Positions 5,945-32,306 of a DNA stretch of 64,000 bases are shown in pieces; position 1 is the first letter of the stretch, and every line of letters begins with the position of its first letter. A program made the translations under genes and the position numbers. The notes below the pieces were generated by a model, which did not search any database, was not told the DNA's origin, and worked only from the letters and a program-made list of their open reading frames with translations. The stretch spans positions 62,001 to 126,000 of the forward strand of contig CAIRBK010000083.1 of NCBI GenBank assembly GCA_903876795.1, read 5' to 3'. This stretch comes from an uncultured Verrucomicrobiota bacterium (GTDB lineage: Bacteria; Verrucomicrobiota; Verrucomicrobiia; Opitutales; Opitutaceae).

Positions 5945-6904
5945 CTAATGTTTTTGCCGCATGAGCACCAGCACGCACTCGGCTCCAGGGCAATCAACTG
6001 AATTCCAGGATGAGCGTAAAGCACGGGCGAGAGCCCATGCTCGTAAAGGATTTCTGATCACAGCCATAATTTTTCGAGCCGCCCCAATGGAAACATGTGG
6101 GCCATAGGAATTCAAAGCACAGGTGTTTAGCCAAACACGAGTAAATGATGATGTCGGACCAAAATGAAAATCCACATCCTGATTCAACTTCATCGCCAGA
6201 GACCTATACGCGGCTACATTCCAGCGTGTTAGATGATGGGGTGGATTGTTCTGCACATCAAACCATCCTGCTTCGAATGGAAGGGGAGAAATCGGTGTGC
6301 TGATTGCCAGCACACCACCAGACGCGCGCAGCCGCAACAACGAACGCACAAACTCTACTGGGTCTCCCACATGTTCAAGACAATGAAAAGACGTGACTAA
6401 ATCCGCTCCGGATACTGACAACACCCCCTGATTCAATAGCATTGCAACCTCTCCCACCACGCACTCATGACCAGATTCACGACATATTTGCGCGCTGTGC
6501 TCAAATAATTCTACACCCAAACGTTGTGTGCATGGGCTCTTGAGGCGGACGCCATTAAGAAAATCCCCTGTCCCGCAGCCCACATCAATCACACGATCAA
6601 TGGGTCCTCTCGATAGAAGATGGTCCATCAAATGGCCGTATTCCCAGCGATTATTAGGATAGTAAAACGGAAAAGATGAAATCCAGCCGTATAACTTTGC
6701 ATTTCCAGGCAGCATCGGGTATGCAAATTGTAATCCACTTATTACACATTCACGCAGAGTGTAATCTATAGGTATAGCATCATCAGGTGGCTTGGAACGG
6801 AAATACCGACCCAATTCATCCTTTAAAAACTCAATCGAGAGTGCTCTCAACTCCCGTGAATCATGACCAAGCGGGGAGAGAATTTTTGAGGTTGGTTTTT
6901 TCAT
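5945..6904 (-). CDS. class I SAM-dependent methyltransferase, polysaccharide locus
   Basis: 319 residues. An N-terminal extension of about 95 residues precedes the SAM fold: motif I is VIDVGCGTGDFLNG near residue 106, the acidic residue follows in LGVELFEH, and FHCLEHVGDP is motif III/IV with the usual H-x-LEH arrangement. ISTPISPLPFE and NNPPHHLTRW later in the protein are typical of sugar methyltransferases of the MT_23 type (PPHH at the substrate loop). It sits between the flippase and two glycosyltransferases, so an O-antigen sugar is the likely acceptor. Confidence 0.8.
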   Translation of the reverse strand: MKKPTSKILSPLGHDSRELRALSIEFLKDELGRYFRSKPPDDAIPIDYTLRECVISGLQFAYPMLPGNAKLYGWISSFPFYYPNNRWEYGHLMDHLLSRGPIDRVIDVGCGTGDFLNGVRLKSPCTQRLGVELFEHSAQICRESGHECVVGEVAMLLNQGVLSVSGADLVTSFHCLEHVGDPVEFVRSLLRLRASGGVLAISTPISPLPFEAGWFDVQNNPPHHLTRWNVAAYRSLAMKLNQDVDFHFGPTSSFTRVWLNTCALNSYGPHVSIGAARKIMAVIRNPLRAWALARALRSSWNSVDCPGAECVLVLMRQKH

Positions 6905-17459: not shown

Positions 17460-17993
17460 CTACCCCAGCAACTTCCCGATCATGGGCAGGACCGCACCGG
17501 CGCGCCGCTGCCAAGTTTTCAGTTTGTCGAGGCGTTCCACGATGACTTTACGGTAAGCCTCGATGGGGACGTCACCCCACGATTGGGCAAAGTCTTCCAC
17601 CCGCAGAGCCTGGCTGCGAATGCCCCACGCTTCGATCTGGGGCGTGAGGCGCTCACGCAGGAAACCACCCACTAGATAACGCAAATCAACAACAGGCTCG
17701 AAGTATTCGCGACGATCTCCGGGTACGACCACCGGCTGGACGGCCCCGATGGTGCGGAGGAAACGCAGGCCTTGGCTGACCGAGCCCTTGCTGAGCTGAA
17801 GCCGCTCAACAATCTCCTGAAATACCAGAGGTCGGGGGCTGGCGTAGAGAAGGCCGTAAATCTCCCCTAGAGAACGGGGCAACCCCAGTGCCTGGGTCAT
17901 TTGCACAAACATGTCCACAATCTGAAGCTCGCCGAAACTCAAAGGCGACGCCGTCGAGGCAATAGGGTCTTGTTGGTGGGCTACGCTAGGCAC
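17460..17993 (-). CDS. GbsR/MarR-like winged-helix regulator
   Basis: The open frame reaches 18185, but homology to the broken copy begins about residue 80 of that frame and the long version would cross the operator. I therefore prefer the GTG at 17993 (177 residues); this is uncertain. The helix-turn-helix is FQEIVERLQLSKGSVSQGLRFLRTIGAV, close to GbsR-type regulators. The C-terminus (ERLDKLKTWQRRAGAVLPMIGKLL) is probably a dimerisation helix. It lies upstream of rfbF on the same strand and may control the polysaccharide genes and itself; that role is inferred. Confidence 0.7.
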   Translation of the reverse strand: MPSVAHQQDPIASTASPLSFGELQIVDMFVQMTQALGLPRSLGEIYGLLYASPRPLVFQEIVERLQLSKGSVSQGLRFLRTIGAVQPVVVPGDRREYFEPVVDLRYLVGGFLRERLTPQIEAWGIRSQALRVEDFAQSWGDVPIEAYRKVIVERLDKLKTWQRRAGAVLPMIGKLLG

Positions 17994-18022
17994 GGCGCGA
18001 AAACAATGGGCTCGTTCATCGA

Positions 18023-18040
18023 GTTCAAATAAAAATGAAC
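18023..18040. promoter_or_regulatory. operator-like 18-bp palindrome at the intact regulator
   Basis: GTTCAAATAAAAATGAAC: arms GTTCA and TGAAC, eight-base centre. Further half-sites flank it (GTTCAT at 18014 and TGAAC about 18047). It is about 30 bases upstream of the proposed GTG start and is conserved beside the dead paralogue. Autoregulation is inferred. Confidence 0.55.
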
Positions 18041-18110
18041 CGGAAATGAACAAAAAATGACCAGTGGTGGGGCCGCTCCGGCGTGTGGCCAAGTGAGGTA
18101 TGGCTAGTAG

Positions 18111-18188
18111 CGTGTAACAACGGCCGTCCTCGGGCGCTTTGTTTTTTGGGGGCAAACCACACGGCCGGGGTCGGTCGTGCTGCACGGG
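18111..18188. repeat. interspersed palindromic repeat A, copy upstream of regulator
   Basis: Begins CGTGTAACAACGGCCGTCCT, ends CGGCCGGGGTCGGTCGTGCT and onward. It shares the central TTTGTTTTTTGGG-like segment with the 17226 copy. Confidence 0.55.
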
Positions 18189-18657: not shown

Positions 18658-20994
18658 TCAATCGGTGAACGTGACGAAGAGCGGGCTGGTCCAGACCTTG
18701 GCGTCGTCGCGTTCGCGGGCAAAAAGATAGAAGGCGCGGTGACCGTGCGGTCCCCGGGCGGGCGGGATCACCACGGTCCCGGAGAGTGCGGCCGGCAGCG
18801 GGCTCGCGGTGAGGCGTTCGGCGGCAACGAACAGCTCCGCGCCGCCGAGGTCGCGGCGGATGTTTCCCGCAGGGGCGGCCAGCAGCTCGGCGCCGGTCAA
18901 CGCGAAGTCGGCTCCGGGGGTGACGGAGTCGCGGTTCCGCGCGAGGGTGTCGCCGGTCTTGTTGTAGGCGTCGATCTCGAAGCGCAGCTCAAAACGGGCG
19001 GCGGCCAGGTCGTCCACGGTCAACTCCAGGTGGTCGGAGTCGCCATAGGTGTCGGTGCGCACGGTGAAGACGCCGGGCGCGGTTTCGGCGACGGTTTCCT
19101 CGGGATGTTCGAGTCCGCGGGCCGTCCACGCGAGCACGCGGACTCCGGTGACGGTGATGACCGCGCGCCACTCGGCCCAGCGGTAGCGGTCGCGGATGCG
19201 GGCACCGCCCCAGCGGATGCGCAGGCGGTCGGGCGCGAAGCCCAGCTCGGCGTCGAGATCGCGGACGAGCAGCCGGGCGCCTTGGTCGTCGCGCAACTCC
19301 ACGCGTTCCCAGGCATCGCCAAGCAGCTGGTAGCGGACGGTGAGCGGACCGGTGTGGGTGAAGGCATCGCCCTGCCGGTATCCCTCGGCGGAGAGCAGCG
19401 CCACGGCGCGAGAACCGGTGGTCGCCCAGGTGTGGCGGGCGCGCAGGGCGCGGGCGACGGCGGCGGAGGTGAGCGTGCCGGCCAGCACGCCGGTGAGCCC
19501 GCCGACGGTGCCAAACGAGCCCACGCCGGGCGCGCCGCCGCCGGGGCGTCCGCGATGTTCGTCGCCGGCGGCCGATGCGCCGACTTGCAGGCCGCGCGCG
19601 AGGGCGTCGCGGTAGAACCAGTCGAAGTGCCCCCAGGAGGACGCGATCTCGACCAGGCGCTCCAAGGCGGGGTCGTGCCAATCGAAGAGCGCGCGACGCC
19701 CGCCGACATGCGGGATGAGCAACGCGCGATCGCCCTCGGCGAGGTCGCGGTAGGCCTCGTGCAGGTCGGCGGCGGTGGGCAGGCCGGGGTCTTGCGGGCG
19801 ACCGGTGGGCGTGTCTTCGTTCCAGTCAAACACCCGCAGGCTGCGGCCGTCGGGCGCGAGCGGGAACCGCACCTCGTCGCCGAGGAAGACCACGTTGCGA
19901 TCACCGCCGACGGCGCTGGCCCCGCACCACTCGGTGCCGGGAAAACACAGGAAACGCTCCTCGGCGTGGAGCTCGCGGCACACGGCCACGGCGGCGGCCC
20001 AGCGGTCGGCGCGGACGTTGAAGTCGTTGGCCGTGTAGCCGACGATATCGAGCCCGGCGGCATCGCGGGCGTAAGCGAGCACGCTGCGTGTCGGGTTGAC
20101 GCCCACGGTGTCGTCGGAGTGAACATGCAGATCGGCGTAGAGCGCGCGGGGCACGGGGGTGGCCGGGTCGGCGGTGATGCGTGCGAAGACTGCGGGTCTG
20201 TCGATCACGAGCCGGTAGTCGCCGGCTTCCGGCAGGCACAACAGGCCGCGCGCCCAGGCACCGGCGGCACCGCTCCAGTCAAGCGGTAGCGTGGCCATGC
20301 GGCGGTCGCCCAGCCAGAGTTGCAACGCGGTCGGAGGGGCGGTGTCGGCCGGCGCGAGGTTGCCCCAGGCGTCCTCCATGCGGAACGTGACCGCCAGCGG
20401 CGCGCCGGGCCGCACCAGCCGGGGGGCGAGCAACACGCCGCGCACTCCCCTGCCCGGCCGCACGGCCAGCGTGAGATCGCCCGGCACGGCCGCGAAACGG
20501 GACGCGCCGACCGTGTCCACGAACAGCCGGAAACGAAACGCCTCCTCGGCAAACGTCTGCGCGCGCGTGCCGGGGCCGCCGCCGCGGCGGTCGCCCAGCC
20601 GGATGACGATGCGGTCGCCGGGCTTCAGGTAGCCGTCCACCACGTCGATGATGACCGCCTTCTGGTAGGGCCGCTCGTGGCCCTTTTGGTCGAAGCGGAC
20701 CTTGAGCGCGCGCACCGTCGCGGGACTCTCGCCGGCAAACGGCGCGCGCGGCTCGCAGGCGGCGGAAACATAATTCGCGGCGGCCGGGTCGGCAGTCTGG
20801 AACGGCGCCCAGTCGGAGTAGAATTTAAAGACGAGCTTGAGCCATGCGCCGTCGGCCAGGCCGGCGGCGCCGACCTCGTAGGTGGCCGCGAGTTCGAGCC
20901 ATTCGCCGGCGACGACCTCGGTGCGCGAGAGGGTGGCGCGACCCAAAAACGGCAGCGTGGCGAGATAGGCGGAAAGTTCGGCGGGATGGCTCAT
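18658..20994 (-). CDS. DUF3604/PHP-like metal-dependent protein
   Basis: The open frame extends further upstream, but the ATG at 20994 overlaps the cysW stop by four bases (ATGA) and gives 778 residues. After about 280 residues of beta-rich sequence a PHP-type metal site appears: DLHVHSDDTVG (H-x-H), then PGTEWCG and IPHVGGRRALFDWHD, which resembles DUF3604 proteins. A C-terminal beta domain follows. No signal peptide is obvious. The reaction is unknown; phosphoester or sulfoester hydrolysis would suit the fold. Its translational coupling to a sulfate permease suggests that it acts on a sulfur- or phosphorus-containing compound. Confidence 0.65.
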   Translation of the reverse strand: MSHPAELSAYLATLPFLGRATLSRTEVVAGEWLELAATYEVGAAGLADGAWLKLVFKFYSDWAPFQTADPAAANYVSAACEPRAPFAGESPATVRALKVRFDQKGHERPYQKAVIIDVVDGYLKPGDRIVIRLGDRRGGGPGTRAQTFAEEAFRFRLFVDTVGASRFAAVPGDLTLAVRPGRGVRGVLLAPRLVRPGAPLAVTFRMEDAWGNLAPADTAPPTALQLWLGDRRMATLPLDWSGAAGAWARGLLCLPEAGDYRLVIDRPAVFARITADPATPVPRALYADLHVHSDDTVGVNPTRSVLAYARDAAGLDIVGYTANDFNVRADRWAAAVAVCRELHAEERFLCFPGTEWCGASAVGGDRNVVFLGDEVRFPLAPDGRSLRVFDWNEDTPTGRPQDPGLPTAADLHEAYRDLAEGDRALLIPHVGGRRALFDWHDPALERLVEIASSWGHFDWFYRDALARGLQVGASAAGDEHRGRPGGGAPGVGSFGTVGGLTGVLAGTLTSAAVARALRARHTWATTGSRAVALLSAEGYRQGDAFTHTGPLTVRYQLLGDAWERVELRDDQGARLLVRDLDAELGFAPDRLRIRWGGARIRDRYRWAEWRAVITVTGVRVLAWTARGLEHPEETVAETAPGVFTVRTDTYGDSDHLELTVDDLAAARFELRFEIDAYNKTGDTLARNRDSVTPGADFALTGAELLAAPAGNIRRDLGGAELFVAAERLTASPLPAALSGTVVIPPARGPHGHRAFYLFARERDDAKVWTSPLFVTFTD

Positions 20995-21833
20995 GAAGAA
21001 GAGGAAGACTCGCGGCGCTCGACCCAGGTTTTGACGAGCAGGGTGACGAGGGCGATGGAGGTGAGGACGGACGCGACGGCAAAGGCGGCGGTCTGCACGC
21101 GGTCGTGGTAGAGCAGGTCGATCTGGAGCGTGAGGGTGTTGGTCTCGCCGCGCACCGAGCCAGACACGACGGCGACGGAGCCGAACTCCCCCAGGCTGCG
21201 CGCGAAGCTCAGGCACACGCCGTAAACGAGCGCCCATTTCACGTTGGGCAGGGTGACGCGCCAAAACGTCTGCCAGCCGCCGGCGCCGAGGATGACCGCC
21301 GTCTGCTCCTCGTGCACGCCCTGCGCGAGCATGAGCGGGAGCACCTCGCGGAAGACGCAGGGACTGGTGACGATGGTCGTGACGATGACGATGGAGGCGA
21401 CGTTGAAGGCCAGCCGCACGCCGCAGGCGTCGAGCCACGGCCCGAGCAAGCCCTGCATGCCGAAGACAAACAGGTAGGCCACTCCGATGATGATGGGTGA
21501 GATGGAGAGCGGCAGCTCGATGAGACTGATAAGCAGCCGGCGGCCGCGAAACGTGAACTTCGCCACGGCCCAGGCGGCGGCGAGGCCGAACGCGGTGTTG
21601 ACGGGCAACGCCACTCCGGCGGCCAGCAGCGACAGACCGAGCGCGTGCAACGTGTCGGCCGCGGAGAGGTGCCCGAGGTAGGCGCGCCAGCCGTCGCGCA
21701 GCGCGTAGTAAAACACCGCGCCCAGCGGCAACGCGATGAGCAGCCCGGTCGCGCCGGCGCCGGCCAGCACCAAGGCGAGCCGCCGGGGGTGTCCGCGCAG
21801 CGGGACGCGGGGTAAACGGGAGACGGCGCTCAT
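20991..21833 (-). CDS. cysW: sulfate/thiosulfate ABC transporter permease CysW, copy 2
   Basis: Start at the ATG at 21833, overlapping the cysT stop by four bases; 280 residues with about six helices. The EAA-type loop that contacts the ATPase is [19 protein letters not shown], nearly identical to that of copy 1. FARSLGEFGSVAVVSGS and GETNTLTLQIDLLYH are CysW hallmarks. With CysT (21830-22651) and the binding protein (22686-23696) it forms a second sulfate importer. There is no ATPase gene in this half, so it must share CysA at 25055-26101 or another one. Confidence 0.88.
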   Translation of the reverse strand: MSAVSRLPRVPLRGHPRRLALVLAGAGATGLLIALPLGAVFYYALRDGWRAYLGHLSAADTLHALGLSLLAAGVALPVNTAFGLAAAWAVAKFTFRGRRLLISLIELPLSISPIIIGVAYLFVFGMQGLLGPWLDACGVRLAFNVASIVIVTTIVTSPCVFREVLPLMLAQGVHEEQTAVILGAGGWQTFWRVTLPNVKWALVYGVCLSFARSLGEFGSVAVVSGSVRGETNTLTLQIDLLYHDRVQTAAFAVASVLTSIALVTLLVKTWVERRESSSSS

Positions 21834-22651
21834 CCGTGGAAACGCCGGTAGAGCCGGCTCTGGAGCACGTTCATCGAGACGAGCACGACGAGGGCGAAGG
21901 CGAGAATGACGGTGGCGAGCGCGGCGGCTCCCACATAGTCGAACTCGTCCATGCGGATGTAGACGAGCAGCGAGCTGATCTCGGTCTGGAACGGCAGGTT
22001 GCCCGCGATGAAGACGACCGCGCCGAACTCGCCAAGGCTGCGGACCAGCGAGAGCGTGGCCCCGGCGAGAATGGCCGGCGCGAGCTCCGGCAGGATGACC
22101 CGGCGGAAAGTCGTGACCGGCCCGGCGCCGAGGATGGCGGCGGCCTCCTCCAGTTGCGGCTCCAGGTCGGCCAGCACCGGTTGCACCGTGCGCACGATGA
22201 ACGGCAGACTGGTGAACGTCATCGCGAGGATGATTCCGGGGAAAGCGTAGGCGATCTTGATGTCGAACGGCGCGAAGAGCGCGCCGACCGGACCGCGCGG
22301 CACGGTGAGCGTGGCGAGCGCGATGCCGGCCACGGCGGTGGGCAGCGCGAACGGCAGGTCGATGGCCGAGTCGAGCAGCCGCCGACCGGGAAACTCGTAG
22401 CGCACCAATATCCACGCGGTGAGCACGCCGAGCACGATGTTGAGCGAAGTGGCGATGCCGGCCGACACCAGCGTGACGCGGTAGGTGGACAACGCGCGGG
22501 CGTCGGTCGCGTAGTCCCAGAACTGCGACCAGGAGAGCCCGGCGGTTTTAAGGACCAGCGCGCCCAGTGGGAGCAACGTGGCCAGCGCGAGGAACACGAG
22601 GGTGGTCCCGAGCGTGAGGCCGAGGCCGGGGATGACCCGCGGGCGTGGCAT
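21830..22651 (-). CDS. cysT: sulfate/thiosulfate ABC transporter permease CysT (CysU), copy 2
   Basis: 273 residues, about six helices, with [17 protein letters not shown], the EAA loop EEAAAILGAGPVTTFRRVIL and LVRSLGEFGAVVFIAGN, all standard for CysT. It starts 34 bases after the binding-protein gene; a small GC hairpin lies in that gap. It overlaps cysW by four bases. The product is the inner-membrane partner of CysW. Confidence 0.88.
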   Translation of the reverse strand: MPRPRVIPGLGLTLGTTLVFLALATLLPLGALVLKTAGLSWSQFWDYATDARALSTYRVTLVSAGIATSLNIVLGVLTAWILVRYEFPGRRLLDSAIDLPFALPTAVAGIALATLTVPRGPVGALFAPFDIKIAYAFPGIILAMTFTSLPFIVRTVQPVLADLEPQLEEAAAILGAGPVTTFRRVILPELAPAILAGATLSLVRSLGEFGAVVFIAGNLPFQTEISSLLVYIRMDEFDYVGAAALATVILAFALVVLVSMNVLQSRLYRRFHG

Positions 22652-22685: not shown

Positions 22686-23696
22686 TTAGTTCACGCGCTC
22701 GGCGGCGATCTCCTTGAGGAGGACGTCCACGAGGGCGCCGTTGTCGAAAAACTCCTTGGTGACCTTCTCCCAGCCGCCGAAGAACGGGCCGACCTCGACG
22801 GTCTTCACGGGCGTGAGCTTGTCGGCGTGGCGGGCGGCGACCTCGGCGTTGCGCGGACGGTAGTGGTTGCGGGCGATGATCTCCTGTCCGGCCGGCGTGT
22901 AGAGGAAGTCGAGGTAGGCCCTGGCGACGGCCTCGGTGCCGCGCCTGGCGGCGACCTTTTTCACCACGGCCACGGGGAACTCGGCGAGCACACTGACCGA
23001 AGGCGTGACCACCTCGAAGACGGCGCCGGGAGCGCGGGCGAGCCCGAGCGTCTCGGCCTCGAAGGTGACAAGGACATCGCCGATCTCGCGCTCGGTGAAC
23101 GTCGAGGTGGCGGTGCGGCCGCCGCTCTCGAACACGACGACATTGGCCAGGATTTTTTTGGCGAAGGCGCGGGCCTTGGCCGCGTCGCCGCCGGAGGCTT
23201 GGAGACCCGCGGCGTAGTAGGCGAGGACGGCGTAGCGGCCGTTGCCGCCGGTCTTGGGATTGACCTGGACGATGGTCACGCCGGGTCTGGCGAGATCGGC
23301 CCAGTCGCGGATGCCCTTGGGGTTGCCCTTGCGGACGAGGATCGAGTGAACGCTGTAGTAGGGCGCGGCGTTGAACGGAAACCGGGCGGCCCAGTCCTTG
23401 GCGACGAAGCCGTTGTCGGCGAGCAGCTGGACGTCGTTGAGCTGGTTGAAGGTGACGACGTCGGCCTTGAGTCCCTCGAGGACGGAGCGGGCCTGGCGGG
23501 AGGAGCCGCCGTGGGACTGCTTGATGGAGACATCGCCGCCGCCCGAGGACTTGTAGGCGGGGACGAAGGCCGCGTTGACCTCGGCGAACAACTCGCGGGA
23601 GATGTCGTAGGAGGCGTTGAGGATTTCCGTCTGCGCGCGCGCGACGGAGGCCGAAACGGCGAGCCAGAGGGTGACGAGAACCAGGGAGCGTTTCAT
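22686..23696 (-). CDS. sbp: periplasmic sulfate-binding protein, copy 2
   Basis: 336 residues with a Sec signal peptide (MKRSLVLVTLWLAVSASVARA). The mature part starts with EILNASYDISRELF, the Sbp/CysP N-terminal signature, and contains KQSHGGSSRQARSVLEGL, which carries sulfate-contacting residues. It differs clearly from the other copy (29691-30689), so the two may prefer different oxyanions (sulfate, thiosulfate or molybdate-like). It is downstream of cysK and the tRNA-like gene and 34 bases before cysT. Confidence 0.88.
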   Translation of the reverse strand: MKRSLVLVTLWLAVSASVARAQTEILNASYDISRELFAEVNAAFVPAYKSSGGGDVSIKQSHGGSSRQARSVLEGLKADVVTFNQLNDVQLLADNGFVAKDWAARFPFNAAPYYSVHSILVRKGNPKGIRDWADLARPGVTIVQVNPKTGGNGRYAVLAYYAAGLQASGGDAAKARAFAKKILANVVVFESGGRTATSTFTEREIGDVLVTFEAETLGLARAPGAVFEVVTPSVSVLAEFPVAVVKKVAARRGTEAVARAYLDFLYTPAGQEIIARNHYRPRNAEVAARHADKLTPVKTVEVGPFFGGWEKVTKEFFDNGALVDVLLKEIAAERVN

Positions 23697-23831
23697 GGAA
23701 GCGTGGAGTTGACCGTCGTGCTAGACGGCGAAATCCCGCGTCCGGTGGTCCGGTCGGCTGGACTTAAATCACTGACAGGTGGAGGGACAAAACCCGCGAA
23801 GTGGCCTTCTGCGGAAGAGCGAAACCCAAAC

Positions 23832-23906
23832 TGGAGGCGGGGGTTGGAATCGAACCAACTCGTGAGGCGATTGCGGCGCCGGGCCTTCCCACTTGGCTAC
23901 CCCGCC
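23832..23906 (-). tRNA. tRNA-Cys(GCA)-like gene with abnormal anticodon loop
   Basis: The minus strand folds as a 7/5 cloverleaf. The acceptor is GGCGGGG/CCCCGCC, the discriminator is U73 (a cysteine identity base), and CCA is encoded. The D-arm is GCCAAGTGGGAAGGC and the T-arm GTTGG-TTCGAAT-CCAAC. The anticodon loop is CCGCAAT: anticodon GCA, but position 33 is C instead of the near-universal U, and pair 27-43 (C-U) is broken. It lies between cysK and the second sbp gene, same strand, inside the sulfur operon. It could be a functional minor tRNA-Cys, a decaying copy, or a regulatory tRNA mimic. Without the CCA the gene is 23835-23906. Confidence 0.7.
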
Positions 23907-23936
23907 GGGGAAAGATGCGAACGAGAGCCGTTACTT

Positions 23937-23982
23937 GAGACCTGGAAAACGCGGCCGGGTTCGGCCTCGTCTTCCAGGTCTC
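23937..23982. other. strong hairpin between cysK and the tRNA-like gene
   Basis: Outer arms GAGACCTGGAA and TTCCAGGTCTC (11 bp, perfect) enclose an inner GGCC...GGCC stem. It lies just after the cysK stop (24005) and before the tRNA-like 5' end (23906). No U-run follows, so termination is doubtful. Processing or regulation are alternatives. Confidence 0.55.
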
Positions 23983-24004
23983 GCGCAGGGCGTGGTGGCG
24001 AGGA

Positions 24005-24994
24005 TTACGAAGCGGCGACGGGCGCGGCGATGAGGTCGGAGATGTTGTCGCTCTCGACATCGACGTCGGCGAACAGCCAGGAGGACAGGTAACGCTCGGT
24101 GGAGGACGGGACGATCACGACGATCTTCTTGCCCTGGTTTTCGGGGCGCTTGGCGAGTTCGAGGCCGGCGAAGATGGCGGCGCCGGAGCTGATGCCGACG
24201 GGGATGCCGTCGAGCTTGATGACCTGCTTGGAGATCGGGCCGGACTGGTCCTCCTTCACCTGGATGATCTCGTCGATGATCTTGGTGTTGAGGACGGCGG
24301 GGATGAAGCCGGCGCCGATGCCCTGGAGCTTGTGCGGGCCGGGGTTGCCGCCGGAGAGGACCGGCGAGCCGGCGGGCTCGACGGCGACGATCTTCACGCC
24401 GGGCTTGCGGGCCTTGAGGACCTCGCCCACGCCGGTGATGGTGCCGCCGGTGCCCACGCCGGAGACGACGAAGTCAACCTGGCCGTCGGTGTCGTCCCAG
24501 ATTTCCACGGCGGTGGTGGCGCGGTGGACGGCGGGATTGTCGGGGTTGGCGAATTGCTGGAGGATGACGCTGTTGGGGATCTGCTTGTTGAGTTCCTCGG
24601 CCTTGGCGATGGCGCCCTTCATGCCCTTCGGCCCCTCGGTGAGGACGAGTTTGGCGCCGAGGATCTTGAGGAGCTTGCGCCGCTCCAGCGACATGGTCTC
24701 GGGCATGGTGAGGATGAGCTTGAGACCCTTGGCGGCGGCGACGAAGGCGAGCGCGATGCCGGTGTTGCCGGAGGTGGGCTCGATGAGGATGGTGTTCTGG
24801 TTGATGCGGCCGGACTTGAGGGCCTCCTCGATCATGTTGTTGCCGATGCGGTCCTTGACGGACGACAGCGGGTTGAAGAACTCCAGCTTGAGGAGCACCT
24901 CGGCGACGGCACCGTGGGCGGCGGCGGTGCGGTTGAGGCGGACAAGCGGGGTGTGGCCGATGGTTTCGGTGATGTTGTTGTAGATGCGAGCCAT
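24005..24994 (-). CDS. cysK: cysteine synthase A (O-acetylserine sulfhydrylase)
   Basis: 329 residues. [17 protein letters not shown] holds the PLP lysine, [12 protein letters not shown] the substrate-binding asparagine loop and [16 protein letters not shown] the phosphate loop; SSGAAIFAG is near the C-terminus. It makes cysteine from O-acetylserine and sulfide. It stands in the middle of the sulfate region, downstream of cysA and upstream of the tRNA-Cys-like gene, linking uptake with cysteine formation. No sulfate-reduction enzymes (cysD, N, C, H, I) are in the window. Confidence 0.95.
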
Positions 24995-25054: not shown

Positions 25055-26101
25055 TCAGATGGCGTAGTCCTCGGTGAACAGCCGGCTGCGGCGCACGCGC
25101 AGGATCACGGAGTCGTCGGGCTGGAGGGCGAGTTCGTCGAGGCGGGCGCGGCTGAGCTCGATGTCGATGAGCTCGTTGGCCCCGCGACGGGTGCTGACGC
25201 GGGCGACGGAGCCGGCGGCGTGGATCGAGAGGACGGTGGCGACCTCGCCCTCGACGCCGATGCGGTAGGGGACGATTTCGAGCTCGTGGGGGCGCACGTA
25301 GGCAATCCTGGCGTCGATGAACGGACCGCCGGAGCCCTCGGGGGCGAGACCGCGCCAGGGGAGCTGGAGGCGGTTCACGTTGCCGAGGAAATTGTAGACG
25401 AAGGGCGAGGCGGGATGGTCGTAGACGTCCTGCGGCGTGCCGACCTGCTCAACCCTGGCGTTGTTCATGACCACGACCTCGTCGGCGATCTCCAGGGCTT
25501 CCTCCTGGTCGTGGGTGACGAAGACGGTGGTGAGGTTGATCTCGTCGTGGAAGTGGCGGAGCCAGCGGCGGAGCTCCTTGCGGACCTTGGCGTCGAGGGC
25601 GCCGAACGGTTCGTCGAGCAGGAGGACCTTGGGCTCGACGGCGAGGGCGCGGGCGAGGGCGACGCGCTGGCGTTGTCCGCCGGAAAGCTGCGTGGGGAAA
25701 CGGCCGCCGAGGTTGTCGAGCTGGACGAGCTTGAGGAGCTTTTGCACGCGATCGGCGATCTCGTCCTTGGAAGGGCGGTCGGCGCGTTTGCGGACGTTGA
25801 GGCCGAAGGCGATGTTCTGGGCCACGGTCATGTGGCGGAAAAGGGCGTAGTGCTGGAAGACGAAGCCCACGCCGCGCTGGCCGGCGGGCACCTGGGTGAC
25901 GTCCTCGCCGTGGAAGGCGATGCGGCCGCTGCCCTCGTCGGCGAACTCCAGGCCCGCGATGATGCGCAGCAGGGTGGTCTTGCCCGAGCCGGAAGGGCCG
26001 AGGAGGGCGACCAGCTTGCCGGCGGGCACGTTGAGATCGACGCCCTCGAGGGCGGTGTAGGCGCCGAAGGTTTTTTTGATTTTGGACGCAGTGATGGACA
26101 T
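25055..26101 (-). CDS. cysA: sulfate/thiosulfate ABC transporter ATP-binding protein
   Basis: Start ATG at 26101 ([20 protein letters not shown]), 348 residues. Walker A is GPSGSGKTT at residues 35-43, the signature [14 protein letters not shown], Walker [13 protein letters not shown] and the H-loop [11 protein letters not shown]. The C-terminus contains a TOBE-like domain with YVRPHELEI, as in CysA. It is the only ATPase in the region and must serve the adjacent CysT/CysW (26149-27963) and possibly the second permease pair. Confidence 0.93.
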
Positions 26102-26148
26102 GCTGAGCGGAAAGGAGTGGGTGGCGCGTGGTGAGTGGGGAAAACCGA

Positions 26149-27069
26149 TCAGGCGTTGGCGCGGCCGTGGCGCCACTCGATGATGGATTTAAGGACCAGA
26201 GTGACGATGGCGAGGAGGGCGAGGAGCGAGGCCACGGCGAAGGCGGCGGCAAAATGGTATTCGTTGTAGAGGATCTCGATGTGGAGAGGCATGGTGTTGG
26301 TCTCGCCGCGGACGTGGCCGGAGACCACGGAGACGGCGCCGAACTCGCCCATGGCGCGGGCGTTGCAGAGGACCACGCCGTAGAAAAGGCCCCATTTGAT
26401 GTTGGGCAAGGTGACGCGCCAAAACGTCTGCCAGCCGTTGGCCCCGAGGGTGACGGCGGCGTATTCCTCGTCCACGCCCTGGGCCTGCATGAGCGGGATG
26501 AGCTCGCGGGCGACGAAGGGGAACGTGACGAAGATGGTGGCCAGCACGATTCCGGGCGTGGCGAAGATGATTTTGAAATCCTGCTCGATGAGCCACTGCT
26601 GGAGCCACGGGAACCACGGGGCCTCGGCGTTCAGATACTGGCCGAGCCAGCCCTGCAGGCCAAAGAGCAGCACGAAGATGAGGCCGGAGATGACCGGCGA
26701 GACGGCGAACGGCAGGTCGATGAGGGTGATGAGCACGCTCTTGCCGCGGAACTGGAATTTGGTGATGCACCAGGCGGCGGCGATGCCGAAGACGACGTTG
26801 GCCGGCACGGCGATGGCGGCGGTGGTAAGCGTGAGCTTGATGGCGGCCAGCGCGTAGGGATCGGCAAAGGCCTGCAGGAACACGTCGAGACCCTTGCGCA
26901 GCGCCTCGACGAACACGGCGGCGAGCGGCAGCAGCACGAAACCCATGAGGAACAGCAGGGCGACGCCGGTGAGCGACCGGCGCACCCAGGGCGAGTCCTG
27001 GGTCACGCGAGAAGGGTGGCCATGCGCGGGCCCGGCGGCCTTGTGGAGATGGGAAACGGCGGAGGCCAT
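26149..27069 (-). CDS. cysW: sulfate/thiosulfate ABC transporter permease CysW, copy 1
   Basis: 306 residues with six predicted helices, EAA loop [19 protein letters not shown], and [20 protein letters not shown] followed by [12 protein letters not shown], all CysW hallmarks. It is separated from cysT by three bases and from cysA by 47. It forms the membrane channel with CysT. Confidence 0.9.
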
Positions 27070-27072
27070 GGC

Positions 27073-27963
27073 TCAGATCTTGTGGTGACGGCGGCTCCAC
27101 TTCTGGAGCAGGTTGATGAGCAGCAGGAGGACAAACGACGACACCAGCATGACCACGGCGATGGCGGTGGCGCCGCGGTAGTCGTATTGCTCCAGCTTGG
27201 TGATGATGAGCAGCGGGGTGATCTCGCTGTGCATGGGCATGTTGCCCGCGATGAAGACGACCGAGCCGTATTCGCCGAGGGCGCGGGCGAAGGCCATGGC
27301 GAAACCGGTGATGAGCGCGGGCGTGAGCTCGGGCAGGATGACCTTGCGGATCGTCTGCCAGCGCGTCGCGCCGAGCGTGGCCGAGGCCTCCTCCAGCTCG
27401 GGCTCCAGTTCCTCCAGCACCGGCTGGAGGGTGCGCACCACAAACGGGAGCCCGATGAACGTGAGCGCGATGAAGATGCCGGGGCGGTCGAAGGCGATTT
27501 TCACGCCGAGCCACTCGGCCCAGCTGCCCCACGGCATCCATTGCTCCAGCCGCCCCACCCCGCCGGCCCAGAGCGGTTCGAGGAACCCGGCCCAGCCGTT
27601 GCGCGCGTAGATCGCGGTGAGCGCGATGCCGGCCACGGCGGTGGGCAGGGCGAACGGCAGGTCAACGAGCGCGTCCACCACGCGTTTGCCCGGAAACGGA
27701 TAACGCACCAGCACCCACGCGACGATCAGCCCGAAGAACGCGTTGACCGCCGCCGCCAGGAACGAGATGCCGAAACTCACCCGATAGGCGGCCAGCACGC
27801 GCGGCGACGCCACCGCCTCGACAAACGCGTCCCAGCTCATGCCCGACGTCTTGATGAAGGCGGCCGACAGGGGCAGGAGCACGATGATGCTCAAGTAGGC
27901 GACGGTGAAACCAAGCGACAGGCCGAAGCCGGGGAGGATGGAGCGTGCGGAGCGTGAGGACAT
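27073..27963 (-). CDS. cysT: sulfate/thiosulfate ABC transporter permease CysT (CysU), copy 1
   Basis: 296 residues from the ATG at 27963, which overlaps the upstream M14-like stop as ATGA (a TTG three bases earlier is possible but less likely). It has [19 protein letters not shown], the EAA loop [20 protein letters not shown] and [17 protein letters not shown]. The translational coupling to an M14-like hydrolase gene is unusual for sulfate operons. Confidence 0.9.
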
Positions 27964-28760
27964 CAAAGATTGATGGAGTGCGCGAGAAATACGCGGTATT
28001 CGTCGAGGAGGGTTTCGATGGCGGTGAGCGTGGCTTCGATTTGCAGGTCAAGCGGCGCAAGCGCCGGAGTTTCAAAGATGAGGTCGAAAGGCTGGGGACG
28101 TTGTTGGGCGGGAGCGGATAGCACGCCCTCAAAGCAGCGGCGGATCAAGCCTTCGCTGGCCTCAAAACCGTCGATCATGGCCGAGCGGTTGCGAGGCAGC
28201 ACGCGCTCGGAGGCGCGCAGCGCGGGCTTGAGCAGGGCCTCGTTGAGCAGGCGTCCGTGGGTGTAACCGTAGAGTCCTTCGCTGGTGTCGTCCGAATGCA
28301 ACGTGATGATGCCGTCGAAACGGTGGGTGCGCAGCTCCGTTTCCAGGATGGCGATCTCCGCCTGGGCGGAGCCGCGCCAGAACTCGCGGTTGAGATCGAG
28401 CCCGGCGTGGTTGTGGCGCGTGCCCTCGGCGTAGCCGGTGGGATTGCACACCGGGTAAATCACCAGATCGTAGCCGGTGGCCGCGGAGGGATCGTGCAAA
28501 AATTCGCCGAGCAGACGGACCAACGCCTCGCAACCGGCCGGCTCGTCGCCGTGCAGTCCGGCGAACAGGCCGATGCGGATCGGGTCGTGCTCGGCGGGCG
28601 GTCCCGAGAGGAGAAACCGCGGGATGCCGTGCAGACGGCCTTGCGCGCGAAACGACCCGGCCATGCCGCCCGTGAGCTCCGGGAAATGCTCCGCCTGCTC
28701 GAACAGAGGTGCGAGCAAGACGCGCAAATCACGCGCGGCGGGAGCGGCGAGGGACGGCAT
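27963..28760 (-). CDS. M14-type zinc hydrolase (succinylglutamate desuccinylase/aspartoacylase-like)
   Basis: 265 residues from the ATG at 28760 (a GTG at 28769 is the alternative start). It has the M14/AstE zinc site: GLHGDEPAG with H70 and E73 (H-x-x-E) and LHSDDT with H155. LDLNREFW is the substrate N-R segment, and IFETPAL holds a likely catalytic glutamate (E230). Such enzymes cleave amide bonds of small N-acylated amino acids or peptides. It is translationally coupled to cysT (four-base overlap), so its substrate may be taken up or released in sulfur starvation; that is inference. The next gene upstream is a diverged paralogue without the zinc ligands. Confidence 0.7.
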
Positions 28761-28772
28761 GGGCGGCACGGA

Positions 28773-29588
28773 TCAGAGGTTGTGCGCGTAGGCCTGGACG
28801 CCGCGGTAGCGCTGGATGACGTTTTTCAGGATGGTCGTGACGGCCTCGCGGTGGAGATCGACCGACCAGTGGTCCGGCAGGGCGAGGGTGAGCTCGAACG
28901 GCGCAAACGGCAGGTCGTCGCTGAGCGAAAGCGGTCCGTCGGCCGGCGGGGCGCCGGCGGGCGAACCTTCCCAGCGCACCTGCCACGGCGTGAAGTCGTC
29001 GGAGTTGAGCAACTCGACGCCGATCGCCCGGGCGTCGAGTCCGCGCAAGCGCACGGTCACGACGTCGTCGTGGGCCGGCGCGGACTCCACGCGCACGAAG
29101 CCGTGATAGCCGCGGCCGCGCGCGTCGTTCGCGAGCAGCGCGAGCTCGGACACGCCGGGATTGACCCAGGAAAGGGCGGCCAACTCCTGGGAATCGCCGC
29201 GCAGCAGGCCGGTCACATCGGCCAGAGGGAAAAACGAGAGGTTGAGCCCCTGCCCCAGCTCGGGCGTGAGCGCGAGGCGCTCGACGAAGTGCAGCAGCGC
29301 AAGCGTGCCGCGCAGGTCGCCCGCGTCGAAGCCGGCGTAAAAAGCGAGGCGCAGCGATTCGTCGAAGGTGTGCGGCCCGAAATACACGAAACGCGGCACA
29401 TGGTAGTGGCGCGCCTGCCGGTAGAAAGGCCCCAGCGGAGAGGCGAAGACGTGGAGGGAACGCTGGGCCAGGGCGTAGAGCGAGGTGAGGCGTTGGTTGA
29501 ACTCGATGGAGGGCGAGAGCGGCGCGACCGGGGCGGGCGTGAATGCGGGTTCGGCGCGGCGAACGAGGAGAGACGTGCGGCTGCTCAT
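28773..29588 (-). CDS. diverged M14-like protein lacking the zinc ligands
   Basis: 271 residues. Alignment to the adjacent M14-like protein by shared landmarks: FYAGFDAGDLRG corresponds to [11 protein letters not shown], and ADVTGLLRG to NPTGYAEG. The three zinc ligands H, E and H become D88, D91 and E168, all acidic. It is therefore either a pseudoenzyme or binds another metal. It lies 12 bases before the active paralogue and downstream of a sulfate-binding gene. Partner or regulator of the active enzyme is a reasonable guess. The call as an M14 relative rests on my manual alignment only. Confidence 0.5.
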   Translation of the reverse strand: MSSRTSLLVRRAEPAFTPAPVAPLSPSIEFNQRLTSLYALAQRSLHVFASPLGPFYRQARHYHVPRFVYFGPHTFDESLRLAFYAGFDAGDLRGTLALLHFVERLALTPELGQGLNLSFFPLADVTGLLRGDSQELAALSWVNPGVSELALLANDARGRGYHGFVRVESAPAHDDVVTVRLRGLDARAIGVELLNSDDFTPWQVRWEGSPAGAPPADGPLSLSDDLPFAPFELTLALPDHWSVDLHREAVTTILKNVIQRYRGVQAYAHNL

Positions 29589-29690: not shown

Positions 29691-30689
29691 CTATTTCTTC
29701 AGGTAGATCTGGTCGAAGGTGCCGCCGTCGTCGAAGTGGACCTTCTGGGCCTTGGCCCAGCCGCCGAAAGCGTCGGCGATGGTGAAGAGTTCCAGCTTGG
29801 AGAACTGGCCGGCGTACTTGGCGGCGGCCTTGGGGTCGGTCGGGCGGTAGAAGTTTTTGCCGATGATGTCCTGGGCCTCTTCGGAGTAGAGATACTCCAG
29901 GTAGGCCTTGGCGACCTCGGCGGTGCCCTTTTTCTTGGCGACCTTGTCCACCACGGAGACGGGCGGTTCGGCGAGGATGCTCAAGGCAGGCGTGACCAGT
30001 TCGAACTTGTCGGCGCCGAATTCCTTGATCGCGAGGTAGGCCTCGTTTTCCCAGGAGATGAACACGTCGCCGATGCCGCGTTGCACGAAGGTCGTGGTGG
30101 AGCCGCGGGCGCCGGAGTCGAGGACGGGCACGTTCCTGTAGACCTTGGCGACAAAGTCCTTGGCCTGGTCGTCGGAGCCGTATTTGCGCTTGGCGAATTC
30201 CCAGGCGGCGAGGTAATTCCATCGGGCGCCGCCGGAGGTCTTCGGGTTGGGCGTGATCACGGAGACGCCGGGCTTGGCGAGGTCGTCCCAGTCTTTGATC
30301 TGCTTCGGGTTCCCCTTGCGGACGAGGAACACGATGGTCGAGGTGTAAGGAGCGGAGTTGTTGGGCAGACGAGCCTGCCAGTCGGCCGGAATGAGGCGGG
30401 CGACCTGGTGGAGCGGGTCGATGTCGCCGGACAGCGCAAGCGTGACGACATCGGCCCGGAGGCCGTCGATCACGGAGCGGGCCTGCTTGCCGGAGCCGCC
30501 GTGCGACTGCTTGACGGTGACGGTGTCGCCGGTCTTGGCCTTCCAGTATTTGGCGAAGGCGGCGTTGTATTCGACGTAGAGTTCACGCGTCGGATCGTAG
30601 GAGACGTTGAGGAGCTCGATGTCCTTGGCGGCGGCACCGGAGACGGCGACGACCGCGAGGAGGGCGGAGAGGAGTGACTTGAGTTTCAT
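29691..30689 (-). CDS. sbp: periplasmic sulfate-binding protein, copy 1
   Basis: 332 residues with a signal peptide ([21 protein letters not shown]). The mature protein begins [17 protein letters not shown] and contains [18 protein letters not shown], the Sbp signature. It is the first ABC component after the porin (28-base gap), so sulfate would pass the porin, be bound here and handed to CysT/CysW. It is longer and better conserved than the second copy. Confidence 0.92.
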
Positions 30690-32170: not shown

Positions 32171-32306
32171 GATGGTGTTTGGGATCAGGCGGGAGAACTC
32201 CAGTGGACTGGTCGGATACCCGAGGACTATCGGATTTGGTGTAGTGTAAGGTTTGAAAACGCCTCCGGGCTGTCCGGCGGGCGAAAGGGGGAGGAATGCG
32301 CGCGGT

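Follow-up and report, generated by a model that had tools for sequence, protein, structure and literature searches.

A tRNA-Cys paralogue, mostly carrying C33, with a conserved address after cysK or cysA in Opitutaceae

What is a cysteine tRNA gene, altered at a loop base that matters for decoding rather than for charging, doing inside an operon that imports sulfate and makes cysteine? The question arises in the window, by which we mean the whole 64,000-nucleotide stretch analysed here from an uncultured member of the Opitutaceae. NCBIfam typing resolved a same-strand cluster in the order sbp, two M14-like genes, cysT, cysW, cysA, cysK, the tRNA gene, a second sbp, a second cysT, and a second cysW (Table 1); a 98-nt gap separates the cysK stop codon from the tRNA, which is followed after 135 nt by the start of the second sbp. 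The tRNA matches Rfam family RF00005 (47.0 bits, E 3.3e-8), and ARAGORN likewise calls it tRNA-Cys(gca); it has U73, an encoded CCA, and its anticodon at positions 23872-23874. An earlier note on this DNA had described a cloverleaf tRNA-Cys with these features on the coding strand between cysK and a sulfate-binding gene, and ARAGORN, Rfam, and NCBIfam typing agree on that description. The observation of a tRNA-Cys with C33 in a sulfate/cysteine operon is thus confirmed. Few tRNAs are kept for nondecoding jobs; a conserved tRNA-Cys in a cysteine-making operon, altered in this way, would offer a clean natural test of a metabolite-linked tRNA pool or sensor.

Table 1. Positions of the tRNA gene and its surroundings in the window
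Feature	Positions	Strand	Basis or remark
First sulfate-binding protein gene, upstream in cluster	29691..30689	-	NF008022, 524 bits
cysT, first permease set	27073..27966	-	TIGR02139, 404.5 bits
cysW, first permease set	26149..27069	-	TIGR02140, 399.6 bits
cysA, sulfate ABC transporter ATPase	25055..26176	-	TIGR00968, above cut-off
cysK, cysteine synthase A	24005..24994	-	TIGR01139, 441.7 bits (cut-off 351)
cysK-tRNA spacer, 98 nt	23907..24004	-	strong hairpin at ~23937-23982, 15-bp stem, no U-tract, fold z = -6.0
tRNA-Cys(GCA) paralogue with C33 and encoded CCA	23832..23906	-	ARAGORN; Rfam RF00005; kept in relatives
Leader hairpin CCGC-A-GAAG-GCCA-CTTC-GCGG after tRNA	23794..23814	-	read from sequence
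GACCGGACCACCGGA motif before second sbp	23741..23755	-	second copy at 32199-32213, before porin gene
Second sulfate/thiosulfate-binding protein gene, downstream of tRNA	22686..23696	-	TIGR00971, NF008106
cysT, second permease set	21830..22651	-	TIGR02139
cysW, second permease set	20991..21851	-	TIGR00969 above cut-off; best match TIGR02140

How unusual is this tRNA within its own genome? Its anticodon loop reads CCGCAAU, with C33 at window position 23875; 41 of the 42 tRNAs in the draft genome have U33, leaving the window tRNA-Cys as the only one with C33, and its covariance score is likewise the lowest of the 42. Because the same C33 occurs in 11 other copies from 10 other Opitutaceae genomes, we reject a sequencing error. 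The broken 27-43 pair that the earlier note listed beside C33 is real in the window (C.U) but not general: the pair is C.U or C.C only within the window genus and A-U, G-C, or C-G in other genera, so that the mismatch appears to be a local, genus-level quirk. The cloverleaf fold is conserved among the copies. Bacterial Cys identity comprises U73, G2-C71, C3-G70, and the GCA anticodon (PMC9976931), all of which the window tRNA has; among the other copies, G511 alone departs, with U3-A70.

Decoding requires a turn that U33 stabilises, and tRNAs with A33 or G33 occur in nature (PMC11415595); in yeast, a U33C change in tRNA-Gln gives the phenotype expected from inefficient CAG decoding (PMC3664417). 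On the basis of C33 and this literature, the paralogue probably decodes weakly. A mistranslating tRNA of the tRNA-ProX type was considered and rejected, because anticodon GCA and U73 agree, both being Cys. The tRNA-ProX of Streptomyces and Kitasatospora is similarly accessory, lacks U33, has an unusual 15-48 pair, and sits beside a functionally linked gene, but its identity and anticodon are mismatched and it has its own ProRSx, whereas here no synthetase adjoins the tRNA (PMC11415595).

How widespread is this tRNA among relatives? In a BLAST search of 56 relatives, six genomes (the window genome among them) had close copies at 91-99% identity, and most had a more divergent tRNA-Cys gene (72-81%). 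A family-wide search found the C33 form in 11 of 252 Opitutaceae genomes, one of which, G537, holds only a truncated copy of the normal type; a relaxed search added G511 and two genomes with U33 (G286 and G338). In total, the paralogue is present as 14 copies in 13 of the 252 genomes, across five genera, with C33 in 12 copies (two of them in G455) and U33 in two. An order-wide C33 pattern had additional matches that were disregarded; most of them are one repeated form from a single distant genus, which we take to be tRNA-Ser. The paralogue resembles the housekeeping Opitutaceae tRNA-Cys(GCA) in length class, anticodon, U73, encoded CCA, A13/A22, and CysRS identity elements. It differs in C33 (in 12 of 14 copies), in its sulfate/cysteine operon address, and in a set of fixed positions (G5-C68, G20, G28-C42, G47, A48 in place of C48, and U51-A63). 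These sequence comparisons place the window tRNA in a separate lineage of tRNA-Cys paralogues, whose carriers are described as soil and freshwater bacteria. As a separate observation, the G537 locus (L110/L189) retains a tRNA-Cys 5' half with CCGCAA, the 3' half being lost after the anticodon.

Is the location accidental? By tblastn and reading of the loci, 13 of the 14 copies, spanning the five genera, stand directly downstream of cysK or cysA, and the earlier note's view that the location is what makes the gene notable therefore holds: the placement is not accidental. The order is cysK-tRNA-sbp in six genomes (G000, G004, G006, G010, G011, and G267) and cysA-tRNA-sbp in two (G017 and G511). 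Elsewhere cysK and the tRNA are followed by other genes: a YgaP-like transmembrane protein in G455, a thioredoxin-like protein in G518, and an FAD oxidoreductase in G513, G286, and G338. The second copy in G455 (L185, G455:C223) lies upstream of an NMT1-type (sulfonate-like) binding protein. Downstream genes thus vary among carriers, and the constant element is the upstream linkage to cysK or cysA. In same-genus noncarriers, cysK is 89-93% identical, is mostly followed by a terminator (by eye) and then by unrelated genes, and has no second sbp adjoining it. Separately, the L185 tRNA also lies upstream of an apparent C-terminal remnant of a cysteine desulfurase (by eye).

The changing downstream genes could also mean that the tRNA is a passenger of a mobile sulfate-transport module, marking its recombination end. 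In G267 (genus g47) the second sbp is 83% identical to the window gene, compared with 75 and 71% for those of the same-genus genomes G004 and G011, which suggests transfer between genera. We nevertheless consider a passenger role remote: reading of the loci revealed no integrase next to the tRNA, the cysK/cysA linkage is stable, and the tRNA occurs without a second sbp in G455, G513, G518, G286, and G338.

In genus g16, both carriers (G286 and G338) show U33 in the tRNA at the corresponding site after cysK. Being in the operon and having C33 are therefore separable; C33 is not required for residence and cannot alone explain the location. The finding of U33 in two relatives of one genus counts against the earlier note's idea that the tRNA regulates its own operon, while C33 in the other carriers stands in its favor. 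U33 and C33 lineages at one locus also provide a built-in comparison.

Do the carriers have another tRNA for their cysteine codons? All ten other C33 carriers (G004, G006, G010, G011, G017, G267, G455, G511, G513, and G518) and both U33 carriers encode a normal U33 tRNA-Cys elsewhere. In the window genome, a draft of 103 contigs at 98% completeness, the window tRNA is the only tRNA-Cys found; should a normal one truly be absent, all Cys codons would have to be read by this tRNA. In several same-genus genomes the normal gene sits between a histidine kinase gene and a ParA gene, and a ParA search of the window genome returned nothing. Because this neighbour too is absent from the draft, the normal tRNA-Cys locus probably lies in an assembly gap, as an inference rather than a proof. 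The earlier note had held that a sole tRNA-Cys would defeat its regulatory idea; the draft taken at face value goes against the idea, whereas the normal gene in every other carrier goes in its favor and the missing parA here tempers the objection.

We then considered whether the paralogue is decaying. Fourfold sites of cysK diverge by 21-46% between carriers (12-20% among the three nearest g47 genomes), whereas the tRNAs of the same carriers differ at 0-10 of 75 positions. Standard pairs make up 98.3% of pair cells across the 11 distinct copies, and double changes occur at five pairs, a number that no shuffle out of 500 reached (0/500). This shuffle count is not a probability, given how few double-change events there are and that related sequences lack independence. 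Pair 3-70 has changed in a compensated way from C-G to U-A, as has the tertiary pair 19-56 from G-C to A-U in G511. GCA, A37, and U73 are invariant across the copies. These patterns point to strong purifying selection on the paralogue rather than decay, contrary to one option in the earlier note. A tRNA pseudogene is ruled out by the low divergence relative to cysK fourfold sites together with the compensated structure; only the G010 copy (L051/L092, G010:C58) looks broken, with a short palindromic insertion in the T-loop and an A50 that breaks the 50-64 pair in an otherwise intact operon. That copy, and the drift of position 38 and of the 27-43 pair, are signs of partial relaxation. Since GCA and U73 never change and the structure is under selection, the tRNA appears to be maintained as one that CysRS should recognise, as the earlier note had allowed, and is probably still charged.

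Does C33 occur in cysteine tRNAs outside the family? A pattern scan of ~85,000 genomes returned 32 stretches which, besides Opitutaceae, fall in Negativicutes, Desulfosporosinus, Paenibacillus, Erysipelotrichaceae, and Chloroflexi, often in tRNA arrays. Most non-Opitutaceae genomes with the C33 form also have a U33 tRNA-Cys. The second tRNA-Cys of Negativicutes, Desulfosporosinus, Paenibacillus, and others shares the CCGCAA loop with the Opitutaceae paralogue; these copies differ in that many lie in arrays, none is near the sulfate/cysteine genes searched, and T-stems are often U51.G63 or mismatched. No sulfur genes were seen beside 12 other C33 loci (neighbours by eye), and a search with the window cys proteins against the non-Opitutaceae matches found only a cysK in a KSB1 genome (L129; Zod_Metabat.251 MAG, JAFGJB010000114.1). 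There, two tandem tRNA-Cys genes (minus strand, 6363-6434 and 6516-6587) both have C33 and G38, with a cysK homologue downstream on the same strand; the second tRNA ends ~25 nt before the cysK start, and a U33 tRNA-Cys is present elsewhere in the genome. The pair differs from the Opitutaceae case in lying upstream rather than downstream of cysK, in its two copies, in lacking an encoded CCA, and in belonging to another phylum, and it is apparently independent. One cysK neighbour among about two dozen non-Opitutaceae matches is suggestive, not conclusive. Eight of the loci in Negativicutes, Desulfosporosinus, and other Clostridia (L117, L118, L120, L121, L127, L132, L134, and L136) hold a second C33 tRNA-Cys mostly in arrays or beside other tRNAs, with the same T-stem features and a U33 copy in the genome; they are possibly an old, unrecognised tRNA-Cys class.

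The recurrence of C33 in redundant tRNA-Cys genes supports tolerance as a rival view. The window tRNA would then be an ordinary redundant copy that reached the operon by duplication or transfer and is used or dispensable, with C33 and the stem mismatch as tolerated drift. Sporomusa, Desulfosporosinus, Allisonella, and others carry a second C33 gene in arrays, nearly always with a U33 copy, and the variation at position 38 and 27-43, the disrupted G010 copy, and the patchy presence would fit as well. Yet C33 has stayed unreverted in 12 copies though a single transition would suffice, and drift sits poorly with compensated stems and a compensated 19-56 pair, with divergence far below that of fourfold sites, with a cysK/cysA link that stays while downstream genes change, and with the KSB1 case. 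We regard this main rival as somewhat unlikely.

How might the tRNA be expressed? Between cysK and sbp, a scan around the tRNA detected neither a promoter-like nor a terminator-like site. The cysK-tRNA spacer forms a strong hairpin in eight carriers (z -3.3 to -6.5, in sequences mostly unrelated and with no clear U-tract), in genomes where intergenic hairpins may be common. This anatomy fits read-through into the tRNA, with the cysK 3' end protected after RNase P cleavage, and we infer cotranscription. Hairpins similar to the one following the tRNA are found in G004, G006, G017, G267, and G511. The same features could make the tRNA chiefly a processing element, cut by RNase P/RNase Z so as to define the cysK mRNA 3' end and divide the cistrons. 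Its strand is always that of the operon, its place is immediately behind cysK or cysA, and a strong hairpin precedes it where noncarriers have terminators. RNase P does not require an anticodon, however, and the invariance of GCA, A37, and U73 makes this very unlikely as its main role.

Could the tRNA instead act as a charge-dependent sensor, as the earlier note proposed? It would report Cys-tRNA status to its own operon, for instance through competition for CysRS or through folding or processing of the nascent tRNA that alters transcription into the next cistron. Its site inside a cysteine operon, the kept identity elements, C33, the hairpins on both sides, and the two C33 genes upstream of cysK in KSB1 are compatible with such a role. 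In Opitutaceae, however, the tRNA is downstream of cysK, the following cistrons are other genes in five carriers (G455, G513, G518, G286, and G338), the second sbp carries a leader motif of its own, and no charge reader is known. T-box riboswitches are a route to tRNA-charge sensing in amino-acid operons. Such an element would likewise link tRNA-Cys charging to cysteine genes, but a T-box is a cis-acting mRNA leader that binds tRNA, whereas in this case the operon contains the tRNA gene itself; neither a T-box nor another riboswitch was found, with no Rfam match beyond the tRNA and chance in this region and eight related loci. No leader peptide with Cys codons was seen by eye between the tRNA and sbp. 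We consider a sensor quite unlikely. What stands of the earlier interpretation is the nonaccidental location, the kept identity, the conserved C33, and the coexisting normal tRNA-Cys; the general 27-43 mismatch does not, and U33 in g16 weighs against it.

Our preferred reading, to which we tentatively give a probability of about 0.45, is that the paralogue is an accessory, chargeable, probably weakly decoding tRNA-Cys cotranscribed with sulfur assimilation in part of the Opitutaceae. It would stand at the 3' end of a sulfate-import and cysteine-synthesis transcript (cysT-cysW-cysA-cysK-tRNA), transcription continuing past cysK into the tRNA where most noncarriers have terminators. RNase P and 3' processing would release the tRNA, a stable hairpin would cap the cysK mRNA, and CysRS would charge the paralogue, a step proposed from the retention of every known bacterial Cys identity element. 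A change from U33 to C33 in most lineages, with a stronger 31-39 pair, would weaken decoding relative to the housekeeping tRNA-Cys. The resulting cysteine-acceptor pool would be sized by the expression of sulfur assimilation and may buffer or modulate Cys-tRNA instead of acting as the main decoder; the cell may thus tie a cysteine tRNA to its sulfur supply. Residence with U33 in g16, the drift at position 38 and 27-43, the broken G010 copy, patchiness (13/252), and, if real, the absence of a normal tRNA-Cys from the window genome all count against this reading. A bolder version, which we judge unlikely, holds that a dedicated chargeable, poorly decoding tRNA-Cys, built into cysteine/sulfate operons, couples Cys-tRNA status to sulfur assimilation and arose at least twice, in Opitutaceae and KSB1, with C33 as a common trait barring it from translation. 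What is new here is a tRNA-Cys paralogue with an unusual, conserved genomic address; the open-access literature searched yielded no earlier account of a tRNA-Cys placed within a cysteine operon.

Several other features of the cluster deserve mention. The GACCRGNCYRCYGGA motif in the second-sbp leader has three matches in the genome, two of them inside the cluster, and none in a reversed control; in G286 and G338 it lies upstream of the tRNA. This short inverted repeat (CCRG...CYGG) or near variants of it occur in sulfate-cluster leaders, both at the two motif positions of the window (Table 1) and at related loci (L203, L204, L131, L151, and L164), and it is a candidate sulfur-regulon site or RNA hairpin. 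The two adjacent M14/deacylase-like genes within the sulfate operon (window 27963-29588) are distantly alike and conserved in relatives. A MarR-like regulator gene (window 17460-18185) follows the cluster in the same orientation and is a possible regulator.
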